Shown piece after piece: positions 9,441 through 31,711 of a stretch of DNA of 64,000 nt (its first letter is position 1; each line of letters opens with the position of its first letter). This DNA comes from Pectobacterium aroidearum (GTDB lineage: Bacteria; Pseudomonadota; Gammaproteobacteria; Enterobacterales; Enterobacteriaceae), in the NCBI RefSeq assembly GCF_041228105.1, contig NZ_CP166097.1:3162001-3226000 (forward strand). Direction: 5' to 3'. Made by a program: the position numbers and the translations under genes. Under the pieces are notes generated by a model. That model worked only from the letters and a program-made list of their open reading frames with translations. It did not search any database and was not told where the DNA came from.

Positions 9441-9501
9441 ACGCAACATGTAGCCTCAATCCTATGCCTAAACAGCTTTGCGGATTTGATTGGAGAGCGA
9501 T

Positions 9502-10731
9502 ATGGCACGTCAGACAAAGCCCCTGAACAATACTGAGGTCAAAAGCGCCAAGGCAACTGACCGTGCTATCATCCTCTACGATGGAGACGGTTTAGAATTA
9601 CAGGTCACTCCGAGCGGTTCAAAACTCTGGCGTTTTCGCTACTACAAACCCTTCACTCGCAAACGTGCAATGATTAGCCTTGGCGCTTACCCTTCGGTAT
9701 CTCTTGCCGAAGCGCGTAAGCTTCGTGAAGATGCACGCCTTCTTCTTGGCAAAGACGTTGATCCGCAGGAGCACAAGCAAGCAGAGCAATCACGGCAAAA
9801 AAATGCCACAGAGAACACATTTGAAAAAGTTGCTGCCGAATGGTTTAAAACTAAAGAATCAGCAGGTTTGGCAACACATACGTTGAACGATATCTGGCGC
9901 TCCATGAGCAAGTATGTGTTCCCACACATTGGCTCTATGCCTATTGCCAACATCACGGCTCAACGATTTATTGGAGCGTTAGAACCCACTCATGCCGCAG
10001 GCAGACTTGAAACTGTTAAACGTCTGAGTCAGCGTATCAATGAAGTCATGGATTATGCACTCAACTCTGGTCTGGTCTCAGTAAATCCAGCCGCACGAAT
10101 CGGACGCACTTTTCATAAACCGAAGGTGAAGCATCGCCCTGCCCTCTTGCCAGAGCAATTACCACTTCTGATGAAAACACTGTCATTTGCCAGCATTGGG
10201 AGACAAACCCGTTGTCTTATCGAATGGCAATTACTCACTATGACTCGACCAGCCGAAGCCGCCGAATCGCGCTGGGATGAAATCGATTTTGGCGCAAAAG
10301 AATGGCGTATTCCTGCCGGTCGCATGAAGATGAAACGTGAGCACATTATCCCACTCTCAGAGCAAGCACTGGGGATTCTGGAAGTCATGAAGCCCATCAG
10401 TAAGCACAGGGATTATGTTTTCCCCGGATATCGTAACCCGCTTGAGCCAATGAACAGCCAGACCGCGAACATGGCACTCAAACGTATGGGCTTCAAAGAT
10501 ATGCTTGTAGCCCATGGTATGAGAGCCATTGCTTCGACCATCCTCAATGAAAAAGGATTTCCCCCTGATGTGATCGAAGCAGCGTTAGCGCATATCGATA
10601 CTAATGAAGTCAGGAGAGCCTATAACAGGGCGCAGTATCTTGAACAGCGCAGAGAAATGATGGCTTGGTGGGGAGAGCATGTTGAGTCAGCTTCATATGG
10701 TAAAACGAGCATCGTTTCTGTCGCTGGCTAA
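9502..10731 (+). CDS. int: P4-type tyrosine recombinase/integrase
   Basis: A 409-residue site-specific recombinase that would integrate and excise the island at proL. The N-terminal arm-DNA-binding domain (DUF4102 type) spans about residues 5-90 (DGDGLELQVTPSGSKLWRFRY, ISLGAYPSVSLAEAR). A core-binding SAM-like domain follows, then the catalytic domain: Arg in TMTRPAEAAESRWDEI, HGMR, ALAH and the nucleophile Tyr in VRRAYNRAQY. I chose ATG 9502, six bases after GGAG, over an in-frame start four codons upstream. Position and direction next to the tRNA are typical of P4-like islands. It looks intact. Confidence 0.95.
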   Translation: MARQTKPLNNTEVKSAKATDRAIILYDGDGLELQVTPSGSKLWRFRYYKPFTRKRAMISLGAYPSVSLAEARKLREDARLLLGKDVDPQEHKQAEQSRQKNATENTFEKVAAEWFKTKESAGLATHTLNDIWRSMSKYVFPHIGSMPIANITAQRFIGALEPTHAAGRLETVKRLSQRINEVMDYALNSGLVSVNPAARIGRTFHKPKVKHRPALLPEQLPLLMKTLSFASIGRQTRCLIEWQLLTMTRPAEAAESRWDEIDFGAKEWRIPAGRMKMKREHIIPLSEQALGILEVMKPISKHRDYVFPGYRNPLEPMNSQTANMALKRMGFKDMLVAHGMRAIASTILNEKGFPPDVIEAALAHIDTNEVRRAYNRAQYLEQRREMMAWWGEHVESASYGKTSIVSVAG

Positions 10732-10865: not shown

Positions 10866-11993
10866 TTACAGAACAGATTTTATTTTTTCATTCACCCACA
10901 CAGTCATATCATGCAGCAGCGTCATTGCTCCCTGTTTATCTTTCGATAGCCCCCAGAAACTGAGAGAAAGATTGGCTCCATTTTTTGAGGAAGAGACAGA
11001 GTAATCTTCATTACTTGCACTCGGTATGAAATCATTCCTGGCTATGCTCTTTTCTACTTCATCCTTGAGATAGGCTATATCGGGATATTGATTTTTATTA
11101 ATTTCAGCATTGACATAAAATTCAATTCCATCCCCATTGCTCTCTGGTCTATACACTAAACTCATATACGTCTTATCGTATCCCCACTCACTTGGATAAA
11201 AGTGCAATGCTTTATAATCCTCATCCCAATTATTCATACGATTGGTGATATTGCTGTCAGGAAGGATTTTGGAAATGACACTTTTCCCTTCCTGAGAGAT
11301 AGTATTTTCAAACGCCTCCAAAAGCTGTTTAGCTTTTATAAGCTTTCCAAAATTTTCCGTGATAAAATCAGACTGTTCATTACTCAATAAATCACTCATT
11401 TCTTCCTCACTCAATGCAGATAGATGGGATAAAAATTCGTTGTAGAAAATCGTCCATTTACTTAATGGTTCATTAATCATATCATGACCCAGAAGGGAAA
11501 TTGCCATATCAGCCAACTCAGCATAGGTAATAACTTTCCAGTCATTATTTACTGAGCTTTTATTCCATGAGGGTTTAAGTATGCACTTATATACGTCTTG
11601 ATTATTATCAATGTATTTTTTAAGTTGCTCCTCATATTTATCAAACGGATTGTTAATACCGGAGATGACTTTATTCTCTATGCCGATTATAAAATCGTCA
11701 TGGCATATTACGATATCGATTCTTTCTCCATCCTCACAGCCCACTTCTCTCTCGGCAGTGAGTGACGAAAAATCCATATTCTCAGCATCTACTTTTAATA
11801 GTTTTAATAATGCCTTCAACAGCCACGGCGTTACTTTTTCATGACCTCCCATAAACAATGCCATTAAATCTGATGTAGGGTTTTCAAAATAACCACATCC
11901 ACCTACATCAAAAAAGTTAGGCTCAGGAATTTCTTTAATCGTTACCTTGCTAAGTTGTTCCAGGAAATCATCTGGAAAAATATTTCCGCTCAT
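10866..11993 (-). CDS. PD-(D/E)XK nuclease superfamily protein
   Basis: A 375-residue protein with a nuclease-fold signature in its N-terminal third: after GCEDGERIDIVICHDDF comes IIGIENKV, giving the D...ExK active-site pattern at about residues 92-108. This fits the PD-(D/E)XK family that includes PF14281-type proteins of unknown function found in defence islands. The remaining 250 residues have no motif I recognise. The start ATG follows GAGGG. It is transcribed towards the integrase and divergently from the next gene. A role in phage defence is inferred from fold and context only. Confidence 0.75.
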   Translation of the reverse strand: MSGNIFPDDFLEQLSKVTIKEIPEPNFFDVGGCGYFENPTSDLMALFMGGHEKVTPWLLKALLKLLKVDAENMDFSSLTAEREVGCEDGERIDIVICHDDFIIGIENKVISGINNPFDKYEEQLKKYIDNNQDVYKCILKPSWNKSSVNNDWKVITYAELADMAISLLGHDMINEPLSKWTIFYNEFLSHLSALSEEEMSDLLSNEQSDFITENFGKLIKAKQLLEAFENTISQEGKSVISKILPDSNITNRMNNWDEDYKALHFYPSEWGYDKTYMSLVYRPESNGDGIEFYVNAEINKNQYPDIAYLKDEVEKSIARNDFIPSASNEDYSVSSSKNGANLSLSFWGLSKDKQGAMTLLHDMTVWVNEKIKSVL

Positions 11994-13219: not shown

Positions 13220-13705
13220 TTAGTTCATGAACTTCGTCATTTCCCACAATGCATAACCAGACGTTCCTGCCTTGTGATGCGTCCATGTCACATCTTTATA
13301 TCTGATAGAGATATGCTCCAATATCAGGCCAGCCCCATCATCAATAATGTTAGGCATGACGAGGTTGATATCTGATATGAGCCCATCATTGATCTGAATG
13401 GAGAAAAACTTCTCTTGTTTGGCATGTTGCGTCGTGCGGTAAAAGTCGAGCAGCACTTTGACCTTCTCTTGCTCGTTCAATGCCATTGCCAGTAACGGCG
13501 TTGACTTATCGATAGGTTTTACCAGGGTGATCGGGTTATGGACTGCGTGACCATCATTACTCATCATGTGGTTAAAAGCCAGAATCATGATTTCATCGGT
13601 ATGCCCTGCCTGATAGCGGTTACCGATAGATTCTAATGTGGAGCAACCCTCAGAAATTAATCCCTGTGATTTACCTTCGATAGTCATGTATGCATAATTA
13701 GCCAT
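13220..13705 (-). CDS. hcp: Hcp-family type VI secretion tube protein
   Basis: A 161-residue Hcp, the hexameric ring protein that stacks into the T6SS inner tube and carries effectors. The N-terminus MANYAYMTIEGKSQGLISEGC and the central LVKPIDKSTPLLAMAL are diagnostic, and the C-terminus keeps EHISIRYKDVTWTH. Length is normal, with no toxin extension. ATG follows AAGGAAATTTAT. No vgrG, tss genes or adjacent effector of known type is in this window, so this is an orphan hcp. It sits between two unrecognised small-protein loci that could include its cargo. Confidence 0.93.
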   Translation of the reverse strand: MANYAYMTIEGKSQGLISEGCSTLESIGNRYQAGHTDEIMILAFNHMMSNDGHAVHNPITLVKPIDKSTPLLAMALNEQEKVKVLLDFYRTTQHAKQEKFFSIQINDGLISDINLVMPNIIDDGAGLILEHISIRYKDVTWTHHKAGTSGYALWEMTKFMN

Positions 13706-14855: not shown

Positions 14856-16526
14856 CTAGCTTTCCAAGGAATTTAGTAAATGAACAACAAATTCGGCTGC
14901 ATTATTTGCAGCTAAGTTTTGTTGTGACTTTTTGTTATTGTTTTTATTTCCGTCAGCCCAATCGCAGATCGCTTTGATCAAAATCCAGTCTTTCTTTTCA
15001 TTTAAACATGCTGAATATACTCCAGCCCCCTCCATTTCACCACCTAAGGCAGTAGGTACTAATCTCTTCAACTCATCACGATAGTTGAGATTATCTATCA
15101 ACTTCTCCCCACACAAAATTAAACCAACATCAACTTTTGCATTACTATCCGGCCAGCTAAGTATTGCATTATGAACCCAACCTAAGATTTTAGACGATGC
15201 GTGCGGTTTATCTCCCCTAAGCGTTATTGAGTTGTCTGCACTAACTCTTTGTAAATCATACAATTGAAGCTGTTTCGAAACCAGTATGTCTCCGACAGAC
15301 TGTGAATTCTCATCAATTCCAAAAGCAATACCTACCATGATCACGGCATCAGGATTAAGATTCTGAATTGCTTTATCAACAGAAGTATGTGAGCCTCCAA
15401 CACCACCGGTCCCCATTTCTGATATGCATAAAAAGCATTCAGACTGACCAATAATCCCTAGAGCCTGATAGGATGTATCCTTAATAGTAAAAGACTCGAA
15501 TTTTTTCTGGGTGATTTGGAGTACATTATTTATAATAGCTTTGCTCTCTACATCAGTTACAGTAACTAAAAGTATCTTTCGTTTTACAGATAAATCATTC
15601 ATTTTTTTATTATTTCTTTTTAAAATGGATGGAAGTTTCAATTCTTTATTAGCTAGAACCCAAATATTTTGTGAGGAAATACTGTCTGGGATAGCTTCGT
15701 CCGGATTGTTAATTAGCTGCTCTTCTTTTTCACTCAATACTTGATATGACTCAATCTGTATTTTTAGTATAGCTGCAAGCTCTAACATAGATACCGCATT
15801 TTTATATCTTTTAAGATTTCCTGAGGTCGTTTCAGGTGCGGCATAAGGTACATATGAAACAATCCCTTGCTTGTCAAACAATATAAGAGATTGATCAATT
15901 TGATGAGCTGCATTTTTTTCTAAAACTGAATGTGCAACGGAATCAAGTAACTTTTCATGACGTGTTACCAATTCCACCATTTCTAATTTCCAATTATGGT
16001 GATCTTTTCCCAGAGGAACAATTCTAATTGCTGGGTATGTTTTAGGCATTGTGCCAATAGGTAACGCGTCGCGATTGCCTTCAAAAATCATTGCAATGGT
16101 TTTTTTAACTAATAGTGCTATATTTTTATTTTGGTTGAGATTTTGAATATCCTTAAATGAGATATTATTTTCTAATTTTATCTCTATGTCACTAATAGAA
16201 ACCTTAACACACAAAACGCTATCAAATAGATGAAGATTGATATTTACTCGCGCTAAAACTCCGGGAAGTAAAAAATTGGATACATATGGAAATCTTTTAC
16301 CTGTAAAACCATACTTATCACGGAAGGTTGATAGCGTTGAATGAAAAAGTGCTGTTGGTTCCAATACTATAGGGGAATATTGCGATAAAATATTTCCACC
16401 TATCCCCCGGAGGAAACTCCTACCACCTTTAGGGTTGAATAAAATCTTATTATCGCCAGATTTGTAGATATTTGAATATGGCACTTTTGTAATTACTAGC
16501 CATTCAAGTCTGACGCAATATTTCAT
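14856..16526 (-). CDS. Large protein with C-terminal MTAN/PNP-type nucleosidase domain
   Basis: A protein of about 556 residues. The last 230 form a nucleoside phosphorylase-superfamily domain: ILLVTVTDVESKAI opening strand, GTGGVGGSHTSVDKAIQNLN, PDAVIMVGIAFGID, then the substrate-binding GGEMEGAGVY and the catalytic Asp in ICDWADG. These match the EME and SDxAD motifs of 5'-methylthioadenosine/SAH nucleosidase. The N-terminal 320 residues are unrecognised. Similar nucleosidase domains fused to sensor regions serve as ATP- or nucleotide-cleaving immune effectors in some defence systems. I chose ATG 16526 (MKYCVRLEW), preceded by GGAA; an upstream in-frame GTG would start inside a tRNA-like sequence. 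Confidence 0.8.
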   Translation of the reverse strand: MKYCVRLEWLVITKVPYSNIYKSGDNKILFNPKGGRSFLRGIGGNILSQYSPIVLEPTALFHSTLSTFRDKYGFTGKRFPYVSNFLLPGVLARVNINLHLFDSVLCVKVSISDIEIKLENNISFKDIQNLNQNKNIALLVKKTIAMIFEGNRDALPIGTMPKTYPAIRIVPLGKDHHNWKLEMVELVTRHEKLLDSVAHSVLEKNAAHQIDQSLILFDKQGIVSYVPYAAPETTSGNLKRYKNAVSMLELAAILKIQIESYQVLSEKEEQLINNPDEAIPDSISSQNIWVLANKELKLPSILKRNNKKMNDLSVKRKILLVTVTDVESKAIINNVLQITQKKFESFTIKDTSYQALGIIGQSECFLCISEMGTGGVGGSHTSVDKAIQNLNPDAVIMVGIAFGIDENSQSVGDILVSKQLQLYDLQRVSADNSITLRGDKPHASSKILGWVHNAILSWPDSNAKVDVGLILCGEKLIDNLNYRDELKRLVPTALGGEMEGAGVYSACLNEKKDWILIKAICDWADGNKNNNKKSQQNLAANNAAEFVVHLLNSLES

Positions 16527-16542
16527 CACTATTCCAGAAAAA

Positions 16543-16613
16543 TGGGTGAACAGGATGGGAATCGAACCCACACTCTAGGAATTACTTCCAAGACTTTCCA
16601 TTAAGCCCGTTCA
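16543..16613 (-). tRNA. tRNA-like sequence, degenerate or atypical
   Basis: On the minus strand a 71-nt stretch folds like a tRNA. TGAACGGG and CCTGTTCA give an 8-bp acceptor stem with one G-T pair. A 5-bp T-stem carries the canonical loop TTCGATT, and a 3-bp D-stem encloses AATGGA. CCA is encoded after the discriminator and a T-run follows. The anticodon arm is poor: it has a mismatch, an 8-nt loop and no T at the position before the anticodon, so the identity cannot be read. It could be a decayed tRNA, a former attachment site, or a tRNA-like RNA. It ends 17 bp upstream of the nucleosidase gene. Confidence 0.45.
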
Positions 16614-17342: not shown

Positions 17343-19700
17343 TCACTTTCTAAAGCGGGCAAATGCCCCATCACTTCCTTTTGGTGCGATCCAAAAAGCT
17401 CTTTTGACACCACGGGTGATGGCAACATATGCAAGACGATAAGACTCATCGACCATAGCTTGATCATATGATTGATGAAAGCATTCTACCTGCTTGTAGA
17501 TCTCATTTCTAAGCACATGGCCGGTAAGAGCTTTGCTATCATCAAAAATGAAACAAACTTCGCCCTGAAGTCCTTTTGCTGAATGAATCGTGAGGAATTT
17601 AATCCCACGAGTGGAGCCATATTTTTTAGCGTAAGCTTTCTCTATGTTTTTCAGAGTATTATTTGTTCTACTCAAAACAATCACTTTTGTTTTATCATGC
17701 TTTTGTTGCTGAGAAACTAAAGAGAATTGATCTTTTATGCGATCAACTGCTCTTTCTTGCCATTTATCATTTTCGTCGCGGCTATCATATTCATCACACT
17801 TAACACCATCTTCATCACCATCGGGGGATCTGCATGGCAGAGATTTTTTATCAATCTTGCGAACGACTAATTTCATTAAACTTTCTGCATCATGGATGAT
17901 CTTCTCATCAGAACGAAAGTTCTCCATCATTTTAACAGTGTGGTGTTTCCCCAAATCTCTATGAACAGGGAAAAATGTTGAAAAATTCATAAAGATGTCC
18001 GGTGAACTTCCGCGCCAGGAATAGATGGATTGCCAGTCATCACCAATAGCCATGATCGTTGGTTTTTTGCATAGAATGGCATTCTCTCTTTGCATCGCTT
18101 TTATCCAGTTAGCTATTTGTGGAGAAATGTCCTGAAATTCATCAATCAACAAATTTTCAAAGCGGCGATATTTACCTAATAAATTTACTCGTCGTTGCTT
18201 TAAAACGCTTTCATCAGAAAACATCATAAACATTCGGTTGAATGTCATCATGTTGTCATTGTGTAAGTTTTTTTCGAACTCTTTCCAAAAAATAGATAAT
18301 GCTTTTGCGAAGAAAAAGTCTACACTCTCCTCCCTGAAAAGGGATATCTTTGATATTGATGAAACTACATCTTTCCCTAAGCTTTCTATAAATGAGCCTT
18401 GATCATAAAGTAAATCAAGTATATTTGAAGCGTTCAACTCTCCACTTAACTTAACACTAAAATTGCTGGGTGCTTCACCATCGACATGCAAGGATAAAAA
18501 ATTAACCACAGTGTCTAGTTTTTTATTACTATTAATCATGATGCTAAGTTTATTATTATAACCAGCAATGATCCTGTTCTTTACAGAAATAGCCATGCCG
18601 AGTTTAATATTTTTCTTAGGTTCACTCGGATCAACAATAAATATTTCCTTATTGTCATAAAGTAACTCATAACCAATACTTCCTGACAAAAAAACAGGCA
18701 TTTTGTTATGTTCGACATACCCATTTGAATAAAAAGCTCTACCATTCACATGAAAACATTCCTGGGGTTCAGGGACAACCCCCTCAATAGGCCATATCCC
18801 TTTATTCCTCCAACGTTCATTCAGAAGGTTAACTAGTTTCAAATCTCTCTCATGGCTGAGATTAATTTTCCAATTCTCTACTTCCTTATCGTCAACCGTT
18901 GCAGGAGTAGTCAATGATAATACTATCAACTTATCAATACAGGTTTTAAAATCATTGTTTTTCAAATATAAATTAGTATAGACTTTTTTAAGATAATCTA
19001 ATTGTTCATTTGTTTTTTTACTTGTCGCAACGTCAAGAATATCATCGTCTTTTATCTCATCACCAAAGAAATCAAATGCCGTTAGACCGGGCATAGCACT
19101 TATAGATAATCGATAGATCAGAGAGTGAAATGTGCTTACTACAGATCCAATGGTTTCTTTATTTCCTTTATGGCCCCAGAACTGAAATACTGAATAAATT
19201 TTTTCTCTAAGCTCTTCACAAGACTTTGTGGTAAACGAAATTACGGTCAATTGACTCAATGGTATTTTCAGATAAAAATGCATGAAAACGACACGAAGGA
19301 CAAGTGTTGTTGATTTGCCAGAGCCAGCACCAGCGACAACACAGGTAGCCGGATGCTCTGAGAAAATCATGTCCCATTGAGATTCTGTTGGATAGCCGAT
19401 AAGCCCTTGTTCATACGCTTTCTTTGTCATCTCTACCATAAGAGACTTAACTGTATCGTTTACTGGTATTTTTTCCGGTCCATATATTGATTTATCAACG
19501 GGTTGCATCACCGCATTGCTTCTTTCATCCTTGATAAGATATTTCAATATCCCGGCATCATGGCCTTTTAAGTATCCAGCTTTTCGCCCACTAAAATACC
19601 CTCGTTTAAAAGAGCCCTTGCTAATTAATTTAAGGTATTTTGAGAAAGTTTTAATAAAAACATGTTCAAGAAAGCTTCTTTTTGATTTTTGTTCGATCAT
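17343..19700 (-). CDS. UvrD/Rep-type superfamily 1 helicase
   Basis: A 785-residue SF1A ATPase. The Q-motif/Walker A region is TESQWDMIFSEHPATCVVAG followed by AGSGKST (about residues 105-132). Motif II is LLIDEFQDISPQ, motif III is IGDDWQSIYSWRG, motif V is TIHSAKGLQGEV and motif VI is YVAITRGVKRAF. An insertion of about 300 residues between motifs I and II is unrelated to UvrD. The basic N-terminal 60 residues are also unusual. No nuclease domain is fused. It follows a PD-(D/E)XK-like gene and an RHH regulator on the same strand, so a nuclease-helicase unit is plausible, as in other helicase-nuclease defence pairs. The exact system is not identified. Confidence 0.85.
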   Translation of the reverse strand: MIEQKSKRSFLEHVFIKTFSKYLKLISKGSFKRGYFSGRKAGYLKGHDAGILKYLIKDERSNAVMQPVDKSIYGPEKIPVNDTVKSLMVEMTKKAYEQGLIGYPTESQWDMIFSEHPATCVVAGAGSGKSTTLVLRVVFMHFYLKIPLSQLTVISFTTKSCEELREKIYSVFQFWGHKGNKETIGSVVSTFHSLIYRLSISAMPGLTAFDFFGDEIKDDDILDVATSKKTNEQLDYLKKVYTNLYLKNNDFKTCIDKLIVLSLTTPATVDDKEVENWKINLSHERDLKLVNLLNERWRNKGIWPIEGVVPEPQECFHVNGRAFYSNGYVEHNKMPVFLSGSIGYELLYDNKEIFIVDPSEPKKNIKLGMAISVKNRIIAGYNNKLSIMINSNKKLDTVVNFLSLHVDGEAPSNFSVKLSGELNASNILDLLYDQGSFIESLGKDVVSSISKISLFREESVDFFFAKALSIFWKEFEKNLHNDNMMTFNRMFMMFSDESVLKQRRVNLLGKYRRFENLLIDEFQDISPQIANWIKAMQRENAILCKKPTIMAIGDDWQSIYSWRGSSPDIFMNFSTFFPVHRDLGKHHTVKMMENFRSDEKIIHDAESLMKLVVRKIDKKSLPCRSPDGDEDGVKCDEYDSRDENDKWQERAVDRIKDQFSLVSQQQKHDKTKVIVLSRTNNTLKNIEKAYAKKYGSTRGIKFLTIHSAKGLQGEVCFIFDDSKALTGHVLRNEIYKQVECFHQSYDQAMVDESYRLAYVAITRGVKRAFWIAPKGSDGAFARFRK

Positions 19701-19780
19701 AGTGAGTTAAAAAACCTTTTCGGATAATTTATTCAACTAAAGATAATGTTTTCAAATGTATCTATCTGGATACGTCTAAC

Positions 19781-20233
19781 TTAAAGACCAACAGGCCAAA
19801 CCTTCCGACCAATCTGCTTGAATTTGCTGATAGATAACGAACCTCGTTCATTACGAGATTTAGAACCAGGTGCGAGTAATGCGTATGTGACTTCAGGGCG
19901 GTAGGCTTCCCACATTTCTTTGACGGTGAACACATCATCCATCAATACCAAAATCACAGAATCCCAATCATGCTCTAACCTGATAGCCCCTACCCTTTGC
20001 CCCGGTTTTGAACTATCAGCAAGAGAACGGCCTTTGATTTGGATTTTACGACCATCAGAGCCAATAGCGTCATAGCCAGCACTACGTGCTTCCATTAGTT
20101 TCAAACCTAATAGCTTAGAGGCATAGAACTCAGCTACTTCACCGGTTATTCCGAGTGGCTTACCTGTAAGTTTTTTGTATTTCGCTGCCAAGTCTATTGC
20201 TGCAACCAGTAGCTCTTCGACTTCATCGTTCAC
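19781..20233 (-). CDS. PD-(D/E)XK-like protein (DUF6998-like), 150 aa
   Basis: A small protein with a nuclease-like core: GEVAEFYASKLLGL helix, then AGYDAIGSDGRKIQIKGRSL, giving a D-x(n)-Q-x-K pattern in which Gln replaces the usual Glu, and then DSVILVLMDD. This matches the DUF6998-type restriction-endonuclease-like fold from memory. GTG 20233 is the start, seven bases after AGGA. It lies 67 bp downstream of the RHH gene and 80 bp upstream of the helicase, all on the minus strand. Catalytic activity is uncertain. Confidence 0.65.
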   Translation of the reverse strand: MNDEVEELLVAAIDLAAKYKKLTGKPLGITGEVAEFYASKLLGLKLMEARSAGYDAIGSDGRKIQIKGRSLADSSKPGQRVGAIRLEHDWDSVILVLMDDVFTVKEMWEAYRPEVTYALLAPGSKSRNERGSLSISKFKQIGRKVWPVGL

Positions 20234-20537: not shown

Positions 20538-20631
20538 CCTATCACAAGCCCTACACTCATCACCAGTTTCGCCCCTGAAAGGTATTGGCCTACCAGACAG
20601 GGGCTAACCACACCGTTAAGGAAGTAACGAT

Positions 20632-20742
20632 ATGGCTATCAGCAAGTCTAGCAATTCTCTTCTGGAAGATCAGCACTTTAAGCAATCGAGTAAGCGTTAC
20701 TTTAATCTGTTCTGGCAAGCTACGGAGGTGCGTTATGTTTGA
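20632..20742 (+). CDS. Small protein, 36 aa, upstream of and overlapping the 53-aa gene
   Basis: ATG follows AGGAAGTAACG. The frame MAISKSSNSLLEDQHFKQSS ends at a TGA inside the start of the next gene (8-bp overlap), the arrangement of a translationally coupled leader. It is not recognised. Serine-rich, no hydrophobic segment. Confidence 0.4.
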   Translation: MAISKSSNSLLEDQHFKQSSKRYFNLFWQATEVRYV

Positions 20743-20896
20743 TAACACACCTCTAGAGCAAGAAGAAATCATAGATCAGTGCAGGGCGTTGATCTACGCC
20801 GTGATCGAAACCAAGAACCCGCAAGCCAAAGAAATTTTGACGTTCATCCTATGGGAGAGGCTCGACTGGCTGTATCAAGATTTTCATTCAGAATAA
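20735..20896 (+). CDS. Small acidic protein, 53 aa
   Basis: ATG 20735 has a near-perfect Shine-Dalgarno GGAGGT. The product runs MFDNTPLEQEEIIDQCRALI to LDWLYQDFHSE and is helical and acidic. A decayed copy of the same gene lies at 26640-26773 on the same strand, on the other side of the DprA locus, which shows that this is a real, duplicated gene. Function unknown. The following gap, 20897-21274, holds no gene I can see; it must contain the promoter of the HAD-PRTase gene. Confidence 0.6.
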   Translation: MFDNTPLEQEEIIDQCRALIYAVIETKNPQAKEILTFILWERLDWLYQDFHSE

Positions 20897-21274
20897 CCAG
20901 AAGAATTTTTCCATTCTTCTATATTGACAATATATAGCCCAAATAATTTCACACATTGGAGCTTAACTTCTCATCGTGTGAATTCTGTGTTTACTGGTTG
21001 CCACATCCAGTAGGTGTGGCGCTATTATGCAAAGCTGTTTAGTTATAGTCCTGCCACTAGTAATTAATAATTTTCAGGTATAATATCCGTTGATATGCTT
21101 GTAGATTTGTATTGATGAACCATTAAGTAAAACTAAGGCAGAGTGACACTGTTGCATTTAAGATTACAACACTTATAATTAGCAAGATAACATCTTGCGG
21201 AAAATTTATAAAAAAGTTAACAAAATGGATTTTAGGAAGTACATTATAACCTTCTTAGAGACAGGAGGTTAATA

Positions 21275-22720
21275 ATGAAAATCGAAGCGATTTTATTTGA
21301 TCTTGATAATACTTTAGTGTCAACAAATAATTTAAAAGATATTAGAGATCGCGGAGCTTATGATGAAATCACCCCAGAACTACTTGCCACTGTAAAACCA
21401 TACAAAAACATTAAAAACTTACTTAGTTTATTAATTTCAAAAGGAATTAAAATTGGAGTGGTTACTAACTCAAGCAAAACTTATGCTGATAAAATAATCC
21501 CTCAACTCCATTTACCAGATTTTGATGTAATAGTTACTTACACAGATGTAGGCAGAGCAGGTATGAAGCCGAACCCTACTGGGATAAATCTTGCATTATC
21601 CAGATTAGGTATTTCTCATCCTGAGCGAGTAATTTACATTGGTGATGATTACACTGACATAATAGCGAGTTATTACGCAGGTGTAATCCCAATTGTTCCT
21701 TCATGGGCTTCAAGAATTCCAGTATCTCAAGTTCCGGCAGCTGTATTAAGTAGCGAGTTTCTTATAGATGAATGTGACACTTACGAAAATATCATTCTAA
21801 TGGCGGAGAAATGCGCATTACATGAGAGTTTTTCTTTTCAACGTAAAAGATTTTATTTCGTTCCTTTAGATGAATCAGCCAATGTCATACCTGCAAGTGA
21901 TACACTTTCAACGATTTGTCTTGGTCGTTATTTTTCACAAAAAAGCATTTTGACTACAAAGCTACATGACTCACATCCACTATCAAAAGAAATAGCAAAA
22001 AAAGAACACAAAGAAAATTATACTCCCCCTGATTATTGGGGTGATATTTTGGCACATGCAGCAGATAAAATTCCCGAATTTTTCAAGGCAAAGAAGTACT
22101 TTGACATAATTACGATTATTCCTTCGAAGAAGGAAAAAGCACAGAGGCTTGAGCATGTTCTGGCTAATGCTCGCAGTAAAAGCCAGTCTAATTCTCAATT
22201 TTTAGATGACCTCTTTGTTTTTGATGAAGGGGCAAGATCACTCAAAACCTTGCCAAGAGATCAAAGAGGTATCGAAATTGAAACCACTTTACACATTAAC
22301 CCCAAATATGATGGCAAGTTGATCGGAAAATCTATTTTAATATTTGATGATGTCATAACTACTGGTTCAACTTTGAAAAGAGCTTACGCTTTGTTACGCA
22401 ACCAAGTTGTCAAACATAGCCTCGGTATATGTTTAGCAAAAACAGTTTCTATTTCTGAAGAAGACAGGTTATGTCCTAAATGCCAGTCTCATGTCCTAAG
22501 AATTAGACGAAATCATCAAAGTGGCATACGATTTTGGGGGTGCTCAGGTTATAATGATAATAGAGAGCAATGCGATTATAGTGAAGGAATTGTTGAGAAA
22601 CAATGCCCGCAGTGTGGTAGAGATATGTTAAAAAAATATAACAAACAAAAAGGCATTTGTTTTCTGTCCTGCACGGGATGGAATCAGGAACCTAAATGTA
22701 ATTACACCGAGAATGAGTGA
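21275..22720 (+). CDS. HAD phosphatase - ComF-type phosphoribosyltransferase - double zinc-ribbon fusion
   Basis: A 481-residue three-part protein. Residues 1-170 are a HAD hydrolase: motif I FDLDNT with nucleophile Asp9 and Asp11, motif II TNSS, the Lys of MKPNP, and motif IV GDDYTD. Residues about 230-425 are a PRTase of the ComF type: IITIIPSKKEKAQRLEHVL and the PRPP loop ILIFDDVITTGSTL. The last 80 residues carry two topoisomerase-type C4 zinc ribbons (CPKC...C...C, CPQC...C...C), suggesting nucleic-acid binding. ATG follows AGGAGG. It is convergent with the DprA gene and resembles the HAD-PRTase at 24846-26105 without zinc ribbons. A role in making, removing or sensing a nucleotide is inferred. 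Confidence 0.85.
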   Translation: MKIEAILFDLDNTLVSTNNLKDIRDRGAYDEITPELLATVKPYKNIKNLLSLLISKGIKIGVVTNSSKTYADKIIPQLHLPDFDVIVTYTDVGRAGMKPNPTGINLALSRLGISHPERVIYIGDDYTDIIASYYAGVIPIVPSWASRIPVSQVPAAVLSSEFLIDECDTYENIILMAEKCALHESFSFQRKRFYFVPLDESANVIPASDTLSTICLGRYFSQKSILTTKLHDSHPLSKEIAKKEHKENYTPPDYWGDILAHAADKIPEFFKAKKYFDIITIIPSKKEKAQRLEHVLANARSKSQSNSQFLDDLFVFDEGARSLKTLPRDQRGIEIETTLHINPKYDGKLIGKSILIFDDVITTGSTLKRAYALLRNQVVKHSLGICLAKTVSISEEDRLCPKCQSHVLRIRRNHQSGIRFWGCSGYNDNREQCDYSEGIVEKQCPQCGRDMLKKYNKQKGICFLSCTGWNQEPKCNYTENE

Positions 22721-22755
22721 TATCGACGATAACACCAAATACTGAAAAACTTATG

Positions 22756-22788
22756 ACACTTAGTGCCCTCACATAGGGGGCTAAGTGT
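22756..22788 (+). terminator. Stem-loop after the HAD-PRTase-zinc-ribbon gene
   Basis: ACACTTAG and CTAAGTGT form a perfect 8-bp stem with an inner GCCC/GGGG pairing, followed by TTTGTCTATTTT. It lies 36 bp after the stop and is a probable terminator. Confidence 0.65.
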
Positions 22789-22841
22789 TTGTCTATTTTG
22801 GATTTCCTCAAGATTTTTTTCAAATTCCCCCATTAATAATT

Positions 22842-22875
22842 AGAGTGTGTCCCGTAACTATTTTTGGGACACTCT
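22842..22875. terminator. Second stem-loop between convergent genes
   Basis: AGAGTGTGTCCC pairs with GGGACACTCT around GTAACTATTTTT. It may serve the opposite strand. The rest of the gap 22721-23193 is AT-rich and shows no gene. Confidence 0.45.
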
Positions 22876-23193
22876 GGTGTATGATTTTACCGCAAAAATT
22901 CCCCTTCACAGAAAGGTGCATTCAGAAAGCTTCCCATGTCTTCATCTTTCTATTCATATCACATCAAAGCTTTTCATAATTCATAACACATAGTTTAATA
23001 TTATATTTTAACATCGCACTTATCTAAATATTCATAAAAATAGTTAGATATATATGACGTTCGAAAAGAATTTAAGTAACATGATGATAAAAACAAGTTA
23101 TACATTAAATTAAAAAACTCACCATTTCAGAGAGAAAAAATTAATATAATAATTTATAATTTTGGGGAGGGGAACCCCCTCCGAAATTTCTAT

Positions 23194-24849
23194 TCATGAT
23201 AATACTATATGATTGAACTCTTCGAGCATGTTACCAAATCGCTCATAATTACAAGAATTACAATTAGTTTCTGCTACAGAATGGACATCACATAAAATGA
23301 CTGAATCAGGGAAATTTAATAGAACATTGTCAATCTTATCTTTTAATACAATCACTGTATCCATATCGCTATGTTCAAAACCACATAAGGAAATTACCTT
23401 TAGCATATGAAAAAGAACATCTTCAACTATAATTTTATTTTTCAAAACAGTAATGGGATTTTTTTCTTCGAAGAACTTATCTTTATGCATCAGTTTTAAA
23501 TTTTTACTGATAATTTTAAATCGTAATTTAACAAGCTGTAGTTTTTCATCCTGATTACCCAATTTACTAGTTAGTTTTTTGTTTTTATTGGTTATATTTT
23601 TCATAACCAAATCAAAGTCAGAAATAAAATCACTAGACACAATAAGCTTTTCTACAGAAATTTCCTTCACTTCATTAGTGTCTACAACATCATCTAGAAA
23701 TGATTCTTCTGTTTTGATAACAGTTTCTGATAGATTACCAAGGACTGCCGCGCCATTACTAATAGGGTTAAATTCTTGTAGTCCATGATCTTCATATGCT
23801 CCCATGTAAGACTCATCTGAGCCTGAGTTACTATGAGAACCGAACATATCAGCAACAAAAGGAATATCAGTCGATACTTGTTCGAAGCAAACATCTTCTA
23901 TTAACTTATTATAATCTTCTTTTCCATTCAAAATAATAATATTTCTTAGCTTCATTTTATCAAAACGAAGAGTTCCTGCTTTATCAGAATCTGAACCATT
24001 GGCTATTAATAAATTAGCCTGAGCTTTAGGCTCGTTTCTTGCGATATCATCTTTTGTTGGATATGGAACTGCAAGCCATCGATTATAATCCAAAGAGGCT
24101 CTCGATGCATGTAAGCTCCCGCCTTTAACATCAGACTGAATCATAACTACTCCACGAGCCAATCCGGCTTGAATACGATCCCTCTTTACATATTGTTGTT
24201 TTTGTATTTCTTGCCCAAAAGGATATTCCGTTATCAGTGCTCCACCTTCTTCAATTATCCGGTGTGCCAAATTTTTATGACGGCTAGGTGCGATAGTTTG
24301 AAGACCATGAGCCAAGACGGCAACAGTATGACCATGACAATTTAATGCAGTTTCGTGAGCAATACCATCACAACCTATTGCTAATCCGCTCACAATGCTC
24401 CAGTTTTTTTCTACAAAAAATTTTGTAATCCTTTCTGTAATCACTTTCCCATGTGAAGTAGGCGCTCTAGTCCCTATTATAGCGACAGATTTATCAGGAG
24501 CCCCAGATAAATTGCCTTTCACATATAACAAACAAGGATCATCTTTTGTTTCAGACAATAATTTTGGATAATCATTATCTAATATGGAAATTATACGAAA
24601 AGAATATTCATCTGCATACTCTATTTGCTTTTCAGCCTTTTCCTGTGCAAACAAAAAATTTGCATCATCATTAACTAATGAAGCAATTTTTACGTCAAAT
24701 TTCGATAACTCATTAATAGAAAAAATGTTTGAAGATAAAATGTAAGATGCCGTTCTTTTTAGCAATACAGGCCCAACTCCCTTGAGCATAGAGAGAGTAA
24801 GTAATAGCCTTGTTGAAGGAGTAATGGTTTCTCTTAAATTATCTTTCAT
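23194..24849 (-). CDS. DprA-like DNA-processing protein with C-terminal extension
   Basis: DprA/Smf proteins bind single-stranded DNA and load RecA during DNA uptake; usual length is about 370 residues, here 551. The N-terminus has a helix-hairpin-helix (LKGVGPVLLKR). The Rossmann-like core shows AIIGTRAPTSHG, SGLAIGCDGIAHETAL, PSRHKNLAHRI, EGGALITEYPFG, RIQAGLARGVVMIQSDVKGG and AVPYP. The canonical RNR is RDR here. About 210 extra residues follow from 340 on, ending in a Cys-rich CNSCNYERF stretch, with no family I recognise. Its ATG overlaps the stop of the upstream HAD-PRTase gene by 4 bp, so the two are translationally coupled. A chromosomal housekeeping dprA would sit near def/fmt; this one is island-borne. 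Confidence 0.88.
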   Translation of the reverse strand: MKDNLRETITPSTRLLLTLSMLKGVGPVLLKRTASYILSSNIFSINELSKFDVKIASLVNDDANFLFAQEKAEKQIEYADEYSFRIISILDNDYPKLLSETKDDPCLLYVKGNLSGAPDKSVAIIGTRAPTSHGKVITERITKFFVEKNWSIVSGLAIGCDGIAHETALNCHGHTVAVLAHGLQTIAPSRHKNLAHRIIEEGGALITEYPFGQEIQKQQYVKRDRIQAGLARGVVMIQSDVKGGSLHASRASLDYNRWLAVPYPTKDDIARNEPKAQANLLIANGSDSDKAGTLRFDKMKLRNIIILNGKEDYNKLIEDVCFEQVSTDIPFVADMFGSHSNSGSDESYMGAYEDHGLQEFNPISNGAAVLGNLSETVIKTEESFLDDVVDTNEVKEISVEKLIVSSDFISDFDLVMKNITNKNKKLTSKLGNQDEKLQLVKLRFKIISKNLKLMHKDKFFEEKNPITVLKNKIIVEDVLFHMLKVISLCGFEHSDMDTVIVLKDKIDNVLLNFPDSVILCDVHSVAETNCNSCNYERFGNMLEEFNHIVLS

Positions 24850-26105
24850 CGTAAGACATCACTTATATTTTTAGCTAAAGAAAATAGAGTAACACTTCGA
24901 GCACCAGCATCTCTTAGAGATTTATATGCATATATTAACGATGCTCCTGTTGTGACTACATCATCGATTACAACTACTTCATCGATTACAACGACTTCAT
25001 CAACTGAAGACAGTCGAGATACATTACTAGTAATCAAGTGATCTCTGACGTTCATAAATCTTTCCCCTTGATTCAAATGCTCACCATGTTGTGAACGAAC
25101 CCCATCACGGTAAGCCAATAGATCTGTAGCCAGTATAACATTACAATGCTGAATTGGCTCATCAGTTAGTGAAGTAATTAATTGGCTAAGTAGATTTTCT
25201 AAGCGAGGAATCCTACCTGGCCGATGAGGAATAGAGGTTATTATTATTGTTTTAGTCCAAAAAAACCCTGCACATTTTTCACTGATAAACTCTCTTAGAG
25301 TATTAACCCATTCACAAGGAAACTCTGTAGAATTTTTGTTAGATGAAATTGATTCTGTTAAAGAATGTTCAGCTCTTTTGTAATAGAGGGATTCATAATT
25401 TGAAAAATTCCTACCAGCAACATATATAGGAAAATTGGTCGTATCCCCCCCGATAGATCTTGGGATGAAATGTCCAATTCTATCGAATCTTTTAGAATCG
25501 ACATTGCCTGAATCGAGTAGACATTCCAATATTGGTAAATATTTATGCGGTTCAGCTAAAAAATCGAGTAAATTGCTGGGTTCATTAATGATAGCATCAG
25601 GGATCAAATTAATAGCGTTCCAATGTTCCGAGCTGTAACTACGTGGCCAACCACTTTGGTCAAGCAATGCAACACAACCAGCATTGTAAGCAGCCTTGAT
25701 ATCAATATCTGCATCACCAATCATAACAACCTTTGTAAGATCTTCAATTTCAAAATATTCCATTATATTCTTAATTCCCTGACCATTTGGTTTTGTTGGC
25801 CTTACATCCTCATAACAAATTAACATGTCCCATTCAATCTCAGGATATGCCCACTCTAAAACCGTTTCAGCATAGCTACGTGGAGATCGAGTAAAAATAG
25901 CCAGTAAAATATCAGGATGACTTGCAATAATTTCCTGAATAATATCTTGAGAGTATATTAATCTTTCATCATCTTCCTCAAGAGTTTCTAACAGCGTTTC
26001 TAAAATTCCCTCATCATCATTATTGGCAAGGCTCAGCCTTATTTCCTCTAAATCATTTGTATGTATCAACGTTTCATCTAAATCAAAAATACATAATTCA
26101 AACAT
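24846..26105 (-). CDS. HAD phosphatase - ComF-type phosphoribosyltransferase fusion
   Basis: A 419-residue protein. Residues 1-185 are a HAD hydrolase: motif I FDLDETL with Asp8 and Asp10, motif II TRSP, the Lys of PTKPNGQ and motif IV GDADIDI. Residues about 210-419 are a PRTase: IITSIPHRPGRIPRLENLL and the PRPP loop VVVIDDVVTTGASL. The strand before the PRPP loop is duplicated (VVVIDE-VVVIDD) by an 18-bp tandem repeat. It lacks the zinc ribbons of its relative at 21275. It is the first gene of a two-gene unit with DprA (ATGA overlap). The ends of the motifs look intact, so both activities are possible. Confidence 0.87.
   Translation of the reverse strand: MFELCIFDLDETLIHTNDLEEIRLSLANNDDEGILETLLETLEEDDERLIYSQDIIQEIIASHPDILLAIFTRSPRSYAETVLEWAYPEIEWDMLICYEDVRPTKPNGQGIKNIMEYFEIEDLTKVVMIGDADIDIKAAYNAGCVALLDQSGWPRSYSSEHWNAINLIPDAIINEPSNLLDFLAEPHKYLPILECLLDSGNVDSKRFDRIGHFIPRSIGGDTTNFPIYVAGRNFSNYESLYYKRAEHSLTESISSNKNSTEFPCEWVNTLREFISEKCAGFFWTKTIIITSIPHRPGRIPRLENLLSQLITSLTDEPIQHCNVILATDLLAYRDGVRSQHGEHLNQGERFMNVRDHLITSNVSRLSSVDEVVVIDEVVVIDDVVTTGASLIYAYKSLRDAGARSVTLFSLAKNISDVLR
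24961..24996. repeat. 18-bp tandem duplication inside the PRTase coding region
   Basis: Two adjacent 18-bp units (TCATCGATTACAACTACT and TCATCGATTACAACGACT on the plus strand, 17/18 identical) add six codons in frame just before the PRPP-binding loop. Confidence 0.85.
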
Positions 26106-26639
26106 TTTTCACTCCATATAAAATATTTTATGTTTTATTACATTCAAGTCATTTCGTTTAGGCACATTAAATACAGCTTTGAATGGTTACTATTTTACTT
26201 ATAAAATCTGATATTTTCGGTATGGCTTTACTGAGCTTTTAATCACTCAAGAGTTGTTCAAATTCAAACTTGATAGTGTCGTCAAAGGACTCAAAAGAGC
26301 CGATCCAGTCATTGTCATCTGCCTCATTTACCATCTTATATAAGTAGAACTACAATACAAACTATTTTCATCCCCCATTCAGAATGGTTTGTTTCCCCTA
26401 TGGTTTTTGTAAATCATTACTGTCCCGACTAATTAATAACGAATAAATAAATTACATGCGTAAAATATTTCTATGCTAATTATTTTTTAAAATACTGCTT
26501 ATAAGATATAGCTCTACCATTGGAAAAGAGCCACCTGAGAGCTAAAAAATAACTAACCCAATAGTTTTAGCAAAAATAATGATAGCAAGGTAATAATATA
26601 AATTTAACTCGTATCCAGTTGAGGACATGTTACATATCA

Positions 26640-26773
26640 GTGGATAGGTCATTGATCAGGGCAAGGTGTTGTTCTACACCGTCATCGAGGCTAGATAGTC
26701 ACTGTAAAAAAGATGTTGACCTACTTTGGGAAAGATGGGACTAGCTGTATCGAGGCTATGATTTGGAATGAAT
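26640..26773 (+). pseudogene. Decayed second copy of the 53-aa small gene
   Basis: The stretch ATTGATCAGGGCAAGG...TTCTACACCGTCATCGAGG, on through the degenerate GGGAAAGATGGGACTAGCTG segment, aligns with 20772-20896 over its length but has an in-frame TAG and small indels. It flanks the DprA/HAD-PRTase locus on the opposite side from the intact copy and in the same orientation. The rest of 26106-26896 holds no clear gene; a 31-codon acidic minus-strand frame at about 26240-26335 has no ribosome site. Confidence 0.7.
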
Positions 26774-26896
26774 GCTTATCAACACAATAACGTGAAACTA
26801 TTGCAATCTATTTTGATTAAATGTAGTAATCAATTTACTTGCCACAACATATATGTAGCCTAACGAAAATGGGGCCGCAGCCCCACATATTATGGA

Positions 26897-27403
26897 TTAT
26901 CCAGCTTGATTGTCAGGCGAGGAGTCATTAGCTACAGAACGAAGGAAATTTAATACCCCCTCCTCACCAAATTCCTTATAAAGACGCTTCATCTCTTTTT
27001 GTGCGCTGCTTTCCTTTTGCACAAGCAGAGACTTACGGCATACTTCAAAGACAGATTCAGTGTCCTTCTCTAAGCGACTCAAATCTTCCTTCGTTATAAA
27101 GAATGCAGATTGATGAGAAATCCCACCTACATCAGCTTTTGCAGGGAGGGACTTAGCTGATATTGGTAGCAGGTATTGCTTCAGAGAATGTGCTACAGCA
27201 GATGCCCGATTAACCGAATAGTCTGCATCAATGTTATATCCTGACGTTGTTAGCGTCTTACCATCGCATAACGCAGCCAGAGCACATAAATCAGTCCTTT
27301 TCATACCGCGAATCAGTTCTGACATAGGCTCATTATCTTGAAAACGCAGATCAAGCTTATGTCGGGCTATTTCCGGGGAATAGTCATCAGTAACCTTACG
27401 CAT
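26897..27403 (-). CDS. Hypothetical protein, 168 aa
   Basis: Not recognised. The N-terminal third is charged (MRKVTDDYSPEIARHKLDLR); the middle reads MKRTDLCALAALCDGKTLTT, and the C-terminal 60 residues look helical (EKDTESVFEVCRKSLLVQKE). I chose ATG 27403 with GAGG six bases upstream over a GTG four codons earlier. It is isolated on the minus strand. Confidence 0.6.
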   Translation of the reverse strand: MRKVTDDYSPEIARHKLDLRFQDNEPMSELIRGMKRTDLCALAALCDGKTLTTSGYNIDADYSVNRASAVAHSLKQYLLPISAKSLPAKADVGGISHQSAFFITKEDLSRLEKDTESVFEVCRKSLLVQKESSAQKEMKRLYKEFGEEGVLNFLRSVANDSSPDNQAG

Positions 27404-29979: not shown

Positions 29980-30357
29980 ATGATCGAAAATGATACTTTT
30001 AATAATATCCTTCGCAGCCATTGCGTCAGTGTCAGGTTAAATAATGAAGAGTTGTCGCTTCTGAATGAAAGGCGTGGTAGTCATCGCAAAGGTGAATGGC
30101 TGCGTATGGCATTTCTGCATAACCTTCCCTCCATTATTCCTTCTATTAATCTCGAAGCATGGAAAACCCTTGGTGAGATTTCGCAGAAGCTGAACAGACT
30201 GGTCGCTCATCTGGATAGCAAGAGCAATGATAGTTCTCTTTCACAAACTGAACTCTTTGCCGTGAAACGGCAGATCTCCGAGCTTCGCACAAATCTGATC
30301 ACCGATAACATGTGGAGTGCTTCCCATGAAGGGAATGCAAAAAATCCGCAGGGGTAA
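29980..30357 (+). CDS. mobC: Mobilisation relaxosome accessory protein MobC
   Basis: A 125-residue RHH-type relaxosome protein that helps the relaxase open oriT. The typical SVRLNNEELSLLNERRGSHR and KGEWLRMAFLHNLPSIIPSI stretches are present (residues 17-55), followed by ISQKLNRLVAHL. ATG follows AAAAGGAG. It overlaps the start of the relaxase gene by 32 bp. An oriT would be expected nearby, probably in 29852-29979 or upstream, but I cannot identify it. Confidence 0.88.
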   Translation: MIENDTFNNILRSHCVSVRLNNEELSLLNERRGSHRKGEWLRMAFLHNLPSIIPSINLEAWKTLGEISQKLNRLVAHLDSKSNDSSLSQTELFAVKRQISELRTNLITDNMWSASHEGNAKNPQG

Positions 30358-31711
30358 GGGTTTCGCCGGTGTTGTTCTCTACGCATTAAAGCCAGGCTCT
30401 CATCATCAATGCACACCTTACATCATTGGTGGGAACATGCTGGGGAATAAAGCCGGAGATCTGATCGCTGAATTCAATACCACCAAAACCCTTCGCCCAG
30501 ATATTGCTAAACCCGTCTGGCACAATTCACTTCGATTACCGAAAAGCGAAGCGCTGAAAGATGCTCAGTGGTCAGAGATAGCTGATGATTACATGTCCCG
30601 AATGGGCTTCTCTGAAACGCATCTGAGATGCTATGTGTTGCATGACGACACAGCAGGCCAGCACATCCACATTATTGCCAGTCGTATCGATCTCACTAAT
30701 GGAAGCCTTTACTTGGGCAAAAATGAAAACCTGATCAGCACCCGTATCATACAGCAGCTTGAACGCGACTATTCACTGACCAGAACCAAAGGGCCAGAAT
30801 TGGTAGCATCACCATCCCCAGCTTCGCCCTTCCCTCCTTCGCTATCCAGAAAACCCCCGACACAGAAACCGAGGGGCGCAACACCAAAGCCTAAAAAGCT
30901 GTCGCGTAACGAAGCGATGATGGAGAAGTATAAAGGAGAGCCATCGCCCAAATCGGTCATTCAGAAAGCACTGGAAGCATTACTTGTCGGTAAACCATCC
31001 ACCACTGAATTTGTGACACAGCTTGTGGCACAAAACATAACGGTAGTCCCGAATATCGCTTCTACCGGAAAGATGAATGGATTTTCATTCGAATATCAGG
31101 GGATTGCCTTCAAAGCTTCGCAGTTAGGTAAGTGTTATTCCTGGTCTACCCTACAAGACAAACTCGATTACCAGCCGGAACGCGACAATGCTTTCCTGTT
31201 TGCATTGAAAATGCCATCAGTCAGTAAGGCATCGGTTAGCGAAGCTCTTGATATGACCATAGCTAAAGATACCCCTGAAATCACAACAGAAGACGTTACC
31301 AGCCCCATCGAAACGCTTACCCTCAATAAAGACGGCGGTCAGGACGAACACGCTATCAATTATCCTACAACGCTACACAATGAAGCTGTTGCAAGTAACA
31401 AAGAAGCGTATGCAACCGAAGCAGTAAAAGAAGCTGGTGCAGATGGTAAAGAAGCACATGTAATCGAAGCGGTAAAAGAAGCTCATCACAGAAAACCCTT
31501 CTCTATGATTCAGACCGGCTTCAGATGGTTAGAAACCATTCCCTACCTCAACATCATCATTGGCATGTTGAAAAAACTCAAAATCCCGACACTCAAACGC
31601 CCAGACAAACACAACAGCATTACGGGCATGAAGATGATAGAAATTACGGCAACACCAAAAACCACCATCAAAACTCCGCAAAAATCACACCCATCATCAT
31701 TCCAAATGTAG
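30326..31711 (+). CDS. mobA: Relaxase/mobilisation nuclease MobA-type
   Basis: A 461-residue relaxase. The catalytic region (residues 1-155) contains the three-histidine metal motif HIHIIASRID preceded by RCYVLHDDTAGQ, and the partner motif DYMSRMGF. It nicks oriT and leads the strand into a recipient, using another element's conjugation apparatus. After residue 165 come a Pro/Lys-rich linker, a less conserved domain, and a KEA...EAVKEA repeat near the C-terminus. I chose ATG 30326, eight bases after GGAG. No type IV secretion genes are present, so the element would be mobilisable rather than self-transmissible. Confidence 0.87.
   Translation: MKGMQKIRRGKGFAGVVLYALKPGSHHQCTPYIIGGNMLGNKAGDLIAEFNTTKTLRPDIAKPVWHNSLRLPKSEALKDAQWSEIADDYMSRMGFSETHLRCYVLHDDTAGQHIHIIASRIDLTNGSLYLGKNENLISTRIIQQLERDYSLTRTKGPELVASPSPASPFPPSLSRKPPTQKPRGATPKPKKLSRNEAMMEKYKGEPSPKSVIQKALEALLVGKPSTTEFVTQLVAQNITVVPNIASTGKMNGFSFEYQGIAFKASQLGKCYSWSTLQDKLDYQPERDNAFLFALKMPSVSKASVSEALDMTIAKDTPEITTEDVTSPIETLTLNKDGGQDEHAINYPTTLHNEAVASNKEAYATEAVKEAGADGKEAHVIEAVKEAHHRKPFSMIQTGFRWLETIPYLNIIIGMLKKLKIPTLKRPDKHNSITGMKMIEITATPKTTIKTPQKSHPSSFQM

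Follow-up and report, generated by a model that had tools for sequence, protein, structure and literature searches.

Gene content and assignment to ShosTA

The locus described here lies at 21275-26105 of a window from Pectobacterium aroidearum, by which we mean the whole 64,000-nucleotide stretch analysed (assembly GCF_041228105.1, contig NZ_CP166097.1, positions 3,162,001 to 3,226,000). It comprises three verified open reading frames (ORFs; Table 1): a DprA-family gene that shares a four-base ATGA overlap with a gene for a HAD-phosphoribosyltransferase (HAD-PRTase), and a second HAD-PRTase gene, with zinc ribbons, that converges on them tail to tail, 473 bp from the DprA-family gene. A preliminary description of the same DNA had this arrangement right, without mention of the ShosA remnant or the 18-bp duplication described below, and proposed that the three genes form a candidate undescribed defence system. 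Our comparisons instead assign the DprA-family gene and its overlapping partner to ShosTA, a known anti-phage toxin-antitoxin (TA) system in which ShosT is the toxin and ShosA the antitoxin. Since relatives of the facing HAD-PRTase carry a ShosA of their own, of which only a decayed remnant is left here, we read the locus as one complete ShosTA module and an orphan ShosT rather than as a three-gene system.

The PADLOC profile ShosA (PDLC03961) matches the DprA-family gene at 3.2e-89 over residues 5-332, and its best sequence matches in the Protein Data Bank (PDB) are chain 8zva, there called DprA, and chain 9vzo, called ShosA (1.3e-26). The PADLOC profile ShosT (PDLC03962) matches both HAD-PRTases, at 5.8e-8 in the paired toxin and 2.7e-13 in the orphan, and it matched every protein of the orphan-type (22/22) and paired-type (18/18) alignments when each was scanned singly; the PADLOC profiles PsyrT and PsyrA also match genes of the locus. 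Both defining elements of ShosTA, a DprA-family ShosA gene and an adjoining ShosT-type PRTase gene, are present in 23194-26105, while 21275-22720 encodes a ShosT-type toxin and has no intact adjoining ShosA of its own. An undescribed system is ruled out by the PADLOC profiles, by the PDB matches to ShosT and ShosA structures, and by ShosTA having been published, as passages of PMC9122126, PMC11878078 (on a Pf-phage ShosTA) and PMC12593503 attest.

Pfam finds a HAD domain (PF13419, HAD_2) in the orphan at 2e-22 and in the paired toxin at 5.4e-13, and a DprA domain (PF02481) in the resident ShosA at 2.3e-57. The PRTase domain (PF00156) of the orphan scores 27.0 bits, just over the 26.3 cut-off. 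That of the paired ShosT scores 22.6 bits (7.3e-5), under the cut-off; set against this, the core of its phosphoribosyl pyrophosphate (PRPP)-binding motif, DD.TTGASLIY, is invariant across 18 aligned proteins. The orphan also carries a Top1-type zinc ribbon (PF01396, 8.2e-10), which another conserved CxxC...C...C set precedes in the alignment. The RecQ-type helicase fused to a PRTase that marks PsyrTA/RqlHI was not found, the Pfam matches in the two toxins being HAD, PRTase and one zinc ribbon. Nor did Pfam detect a reverse transcriptase family, as expected of a retron with a PRTase effector, in the 15 ORFs scanned between 10866 and 31711, a set that excludes the 103-aa ORF at 20585-20896 and shorter ones.

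AlphaFold2 models of the two toxins have mean predicted local distance difference test (pLDDT) scores of 91.1 (orphan) and 90.9 (paired). For both models the ShosT structures 8zvb, 8zvc and 8zvd take ranks 1-3 by E-value in the Foldseek search of the PDB, over 437-454 columns, in the order 8zvd/8zvc/8zvb for the paired toxin (441-444 columns) and 8zvd/8zvb/8zvc for the orphan. The alignment span suggests that the solved ShosT, too, has a HAD-like N-terminal half. By phmmer, the C-terminal half of the orphan had no match in the PDB at 0.01.

The paired genes evolve under constraint. Compared with the paired module of another genome (G218, locus L080), the two genes give nonsynonymous and synonymous substitution rates of dN 0.048 / dS 0.200 and dN 0.035 / dS 0.172, and the paired ShosT differs from its relatives at 0/123 conserved columns. 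It does carry an in-frame 18-bp tandem duplication, whose six extra residues occur in none of the 17 other aligned relatives. A third, partial copy of the unit, seen by eye, follows the duplication at 24966-25001, so slippage may readily occur here; an assembly error is also a possible source of the duplication.

Table 1. Features of the ShosTA locus, in window coordinates
Feature	Coordinates	Strand	Details or basis
Orphan ShosT (gene A), second lineage	21275..22720	+	481 aa; HAD 1-172, PRTase ~250-393, zinc ribbons ~400-434, 442-480
Decayed 5' remnant (~33 codons) of the orphan's own ShosA	22717..22818	+	tblastn and nucleotide homology
359-bp filler between modules, without detectable ShosA homology	22819..23177	.	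sequence comparison
ShosTA module extent common with L080 (91% nucleotide identity), near the same integrase there	23177..27167	-	nucleotide comparison
ShosA-type antitoxin (gene D)	23194..24849	-	551 aa; DprA domain residues 81-268; long C-terminal extension
ATGA 4-bp overlap, end of toxin B / start of ShosA	24846..24849	-	sequence; same overlap in L003, L080
ShosT-type toxin of the complete pair (gene B)	24846..26105	-	419 aa; HAD ~1-188, PRTase ~238-416
18-bp unit x2, in-frame tandem duplication directly 5' of the PRPP-binding motif of the paired ShosT	24966..25001	-	sequence

The orphan toxin and the remnant of its antitoxin

The orphan ShosT is only 25% identical to the paired one, and the comparison with its own relatives indicates that it has lost a ShosA of which about 33 codons are left. 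Nucleotide homology with L096, the closest relative having upstream sequence (toxin 78% identical), begins at 21201, so that about 74 bp 5' of the orphan are conserved as well, and runs unbroken through the toxin and its stop codon to 22818; homology with L066 begins at 21275 and likewise crosses the toxin stop to end at 22818. The final stretch of some 100 bp corresponds to the first ~33 residues of ShosA, with 20/32 residues identical, an in-frame stop and one lost codon. The loss of the antitoxin follows from this continuation of homology into a decayed ShosA and then into filler that lacks it. In tblastn, the L066/L096 ShosA query finds the remnant at 2e-6, a value that applies to a searched sequence of only 510 or 700 bases; other orphan-type ShosA queries find the same place at 1.8e-4, 0.015 and 0.32, and one has no match. 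Of these two kinds of evidence, the unbroken nucleotide alignment is the stronger argument.

An intact ShosA adjoins the toxin in all ten counted orphan-type loci (L066, L067, L068, L069, L070, L077, L078, L081, L095 and L096), whose start either overlaps the toxin gene or lies up to 106 bp beyond it. These loci are partly dependent: the toxins of L066 and L096 are identical, with that of L067 almost the same, L068 and L069 form a near-identical pair, and L081 is the same place as L006/L009. The toxin of L070 is cut by a contig end, and the toxin-ShosA gap of 66 bp in L077 is as annotated. The opposite decay is seen at L081:8854-11298 (genome G155), where an orphan-type ShosT is frameshifted and its ShosA is intact. 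Across every orphan- or paired-type locus opened, a DprA-family gene adjoins the toxin, except at the orphan in the window.

The orphan differs at only one of the 72 columns that at least 90% of 21 relatives conserve, by a leucine-to-isoleucine change. Its comparison with L066 gave no valid dS, which leaves purifying selection since orphaning unproven. At E <= 1e-5 the genome contains two DprA-like places, the resident ShosA and a gene at C1:507364, presumably the housekeeping DprA. Identity between the resident ShosA and the lost type is 44%, and the paired lineage stands apart from the orphan type in the toxin tree as well as in the antitoxin tree. In these trees L078 and L079 have long branches, L079 changes position between them, and the orphan-type antitoxin clade has moderate support (84/91). 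Together, the trees and the 44% identity neither prove nor disprove that the resident ShosA might neutralise the orphan.

Relatives and island setting

Both lineages are sparsely distributed. Among 5,426 E. coli genomes, the paired module (ShosT and ShosA) is present in 12, at 78.5% nucleotide identity and with both genes annotated in each, and in the two such loci opened, the Kiwa genes kwaAB and an ABC-three-component cluster adjoin the pair. The orphan-type pair is present in 14 of these genomes and an orphan-type toxin lies in a prophage at icd in one; over the three types, both genes are annotated under the match in 27/27 genomes. The one orphan-type pair opened in E. coli (L095:5479-9437) belongs to a P4-like satellite at tRNA-Sec, with the HAD-PRTase and DprA genes directly behind the integrase. 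Orphan-type toxins also occur in a Pf phage, a Psychrobacter plasmid, IMG/VR contigs and genome G155. The Pf-phage relative is 52% identical to the orphan, was annotated together with its DprA as ShosT/ShosA by the depositors, and adjoins kwaAB.

Closer to the window genome, 295 genomes of its family include two with the orphan type and three with the paired type, the window genome alone having both. Of four genomes matched in the orphan search, two were weak cross-matches of paired-type genes. The order (394 genomes, E <= 1e-20) and the class (369 genomes, E <= 1e-30) were covered by partly overlapping samples, in which the orphan occurs in the window genome only. Several weaker matches stand outside these counts. 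A scan of genome contigs with the orphan alignment, based on weak motif patterns, gave at least 52 loci; the 52 listed are all partial matches, 23-55% identical over the best segment, and none of them was counted. When 11 of the 52 were compared with five query proteins at 1e-8, a match was found in L011 only (to the PRTase part of the orphan, 26%), where no DprA was found. Loci L072, L073 and L075, each with a DprA nearby, resemble the orphan chiefly or solely in the HAD part and were left uncounted, as were a paired-type match on a Rhizobium plasmid (H16) and partial orphan-type proteins of E. coli (e.g. P0090, P0094, P0096, P0100). Further scans of viral contigs with single relatives found nothing.

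The locus lies in what is plausibly a defence island on a mobilisable element, since defence-type neighbours share the island with an integrase (9490-10731), which follows tRNA-Pro, and a relaxase (30317-31711). The earlier proposal of a defence locus with a DprA relative and PRTase core in a mobile island agrees with this setting, and in genome G218 the paired module lies near the same integrase. Directly behind the integrase is a PD-(D/E)XK nuclease gene (10866-11993; PADLOC candidate PDC-S26, 4.2e-57). A UvrD-type helicase gene with GajB-like PADLOC matches (17343-19700) adjoins, on the same strand, a gene for an mREase_II (DUF6998) restriction enzyme (19781-20233), and the two (17343-20233) are possibly a restriction-type pair. 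At 14856-16571 is encoded a 571-aa effector-like protein with a C-terminal nucleoside-phosphorylase (PNP-superfamily) domain, matched by the PADLOC PN-superfamily 'Effector' and PDC-M60C; no assignment covers its N-terminal half. The island also has an Hcp-type gene of the type VI secretion system (T6SS; 13220-13705), the only T6SS family among the scanned neighbours. Further along, 37069-41253 looks like a recombinase trio, with adjoining tyrosine recombinases (38762-40066 and 40063-41253) and a 591-aa protein without a Pfam match. Promoter-like matches number 26 against 27.6 expected, not in excess, and terminator-like ones 8 against 2.5 expected, an excess; we conclude nothing from either count.

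Proposed action, rival readings and known systems

In our reading, which we hold with high confidence, a complete ShosTA module faces what is left of another, divergent ShosTA: its toxin, and the ~33-codon remnant of a ShosA otherwise lost. Gene identity, adjacency, conserved motifs and the remnant can be read directly from this DNA; for toxicity, neutralisation, trigger and defence we draw on the literature on other ShosTA members. A review of the work of Pu et al. 2025, in the passages available, gives ShosT both PRTase and pyrophosphatase activity and has it upset the purine pool, which leads to DNA duplications, filamentation and death; ShosA binds DNA and counteracts the toxin (PMC12593503). 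By analogy, the paired ShosT would use PRPP through its PRTase domain and act as a pyrophosphatase, an activity that we ourselves would place in the HAD domain, and the resulting disturbance of purines would damage DNA and arrest growth. ShosA, a DNA-binding relative of DprA, would restrain the toxin until phage takeover frees it, and the infected cell would then stop growing, making the paired genes an abortive-infection TA pair. What frees the toxin is not settled, because the same review names T7 Gp0.7 as a trigger, whereas a passage of PMC10732053 counts ShosTA among the systems that phage single-strand DNA-binding proteins activate. The preliminary description had DprA sensing foreign DNA, which comes close to the suggestion of Rousset et al. 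of a DprA that detects phage DNA and switches on the PRTase (PMC9122126, in part); the mechanism in the review departs from it, with the DprA relative as antitoxin. As for the orphan, the cell may tolerate it through at least partial restraint by the resident ShosA; alternatively, its expression may be low or the protein inactive.

Several observations weigh against this reading. The ShosT profile scores are modest and limited to the PRTase part. Global superposition of the models on ShosT is poor, with template modelling (TM) scores of 0.30-0.33 for the paired toxin and 0.25-0.31 for the orphan and a root-mean-square deviation of ~18 A; low TM beside top E-value ranks means that domain order and local profile agree while overall geometry does not. 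In the VIA second look, the top 50 rows for both toxins held HAD-type structures only and no ShosT. The 18-bp duplication might impair the paired toxin; since the model places the duplicated residues in a loop (block pLDDT 69) that precedes an intact strand (376-384) and loop, the toxin may still work. Finally, the ORF of the orphan shows no visible degradation, for which simple decay offers no explanation.

That intact ORF invites a refinement of our reading, which we entertain tentatively: the resident ShosA may have taken over the neutralisation of the orphan, so that two toxins share one antitoxin and the orphan has been kept intact. The near-complete set of conserved residues in the orphan, its conserved upstream region, and the presence of just one DprA-like gene besides the presumed housekeeping DprA are all consistent with such sharing. 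On the other hand, the divergence of the resident ShosA from the lost type and the split of the lineages in both trees are what specific pairs would be expected to show, and an intact ORF could also reflect a recent loss, absence of expression or absence of toxicity; nor did the orphan give a valid dS. In its fullest form, which seems to us rather doubtful, a ShosA of one lineage would control a divergent ShosT, loss of the second antitoxin would thereby be tolerated with both toxins answering to one ShosA, and the 18-bp repeat by the PRPP loop, possibly liable to slippage, may in addition tune the first toxin. The possible restraint of the orphan by the resident ShosA is the only novel point of the locus; we do not claim that an orphan ShosT as such is new.

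Two other explanations fare much worse. That both HAD-PRTases and the DprA-family protein form one three-gene defence unit is very unlikely: the genes are close together and conserved residues are intact in both toxins, yet the second HAD-PRTase comes from a separate ShosTA lineage whose relatives have their own ShosA, the orphan itself retains a remnant of one, the other opened ShosT/ShosA loci have one HAD-PRTase and one DprA each, and the two toxin types meet in the window genome alone in the family sample. We give almost no credence to the idea that the DprA-family gene serves housekeeping or competence, together with ComF-like partners, and has no part in defence. Its DprA profile similarity and the weak ComF matches of the PRTase parts speak for such a role, but the resident ShosA scores 180.4 bits against the DprA equivalog model TIGR00732, under the 191.15 cut-off, the genome has its separate DprA-like gene at C1:507364, and relatives reside in a Pf phage, a plasmid, a P4-like satellite and a prophage.

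Read as one ShosTA module and an orphan ShosT, the locus joins a family whose structures have been solved and whose mechanism is published, and there is no need to follow it up as a new system. An intact orphan toxin beside a foreign ShosA amounts to a natural experiment on how specific ShosTA antitoxins are. If one ShosA does restrain both toxins, defence islands can merge TA modules by antitoxin sharing; if the resident ShosA does not restrain the orphan, the orphan is silent or harmless, which would constrain any model that makes free ShosT invariably lethal.

Among known systems, ShosTA itself (PDB ShosT 8zvb/8zvc/8zvd, 9w2p and 9w2q; ShosA 9vzo) shares with the locus a DprA-family antitoxin beside a PRTase toxin and a mobile-element setting, and three opened records of relatives contain Kiwa genes. 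The locus differs in the length of its ShosA (551 aa against 318-331 aa for chains 8zva/9vzo), in the duplication within the paired toxin, and in the extra ShosT without ShosA beside the pair. The Pf-phage ShosTA of PfAC02a (GenBank OR790968) likewise has a HAD-PRTase, the 52% identical relative of the orphan, followed by DprA; both genes are present there, whereas the orphan here is without its cognate ShosA. Rousset et al., in the passages available, report a DprA and PRTase system from a P2-like phage hotspot that protects against T7 and lambda and is related to shosTA and rqlHI, whose DprA relatives act as antitoxins (PMC9122126). In PsyrTA/RqlHI, too, a PRTase toxin domain is held by a DprA-family protein: as excerpts of Russell and Mulvey (PMC4670107) describe, the toxicity of RqlH without RqlI needs the PRTase domain and is mostly removed by a PRPP-pocket mutation, and the two proteins bind each other, likely via that domain. 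RqlH is a helicase fused to a PRTase, whereas HAD takes that place here and neither toxin has a Pfam helicase. The Ter-associated nucleotide systems with HAD and PRTase (PMC7824862, in part) are similar in using such enzymes in conflict systems; they differ from the present locus, which has a DprA partner and no Ter family among the Pfam matches of its scanned neighbours.

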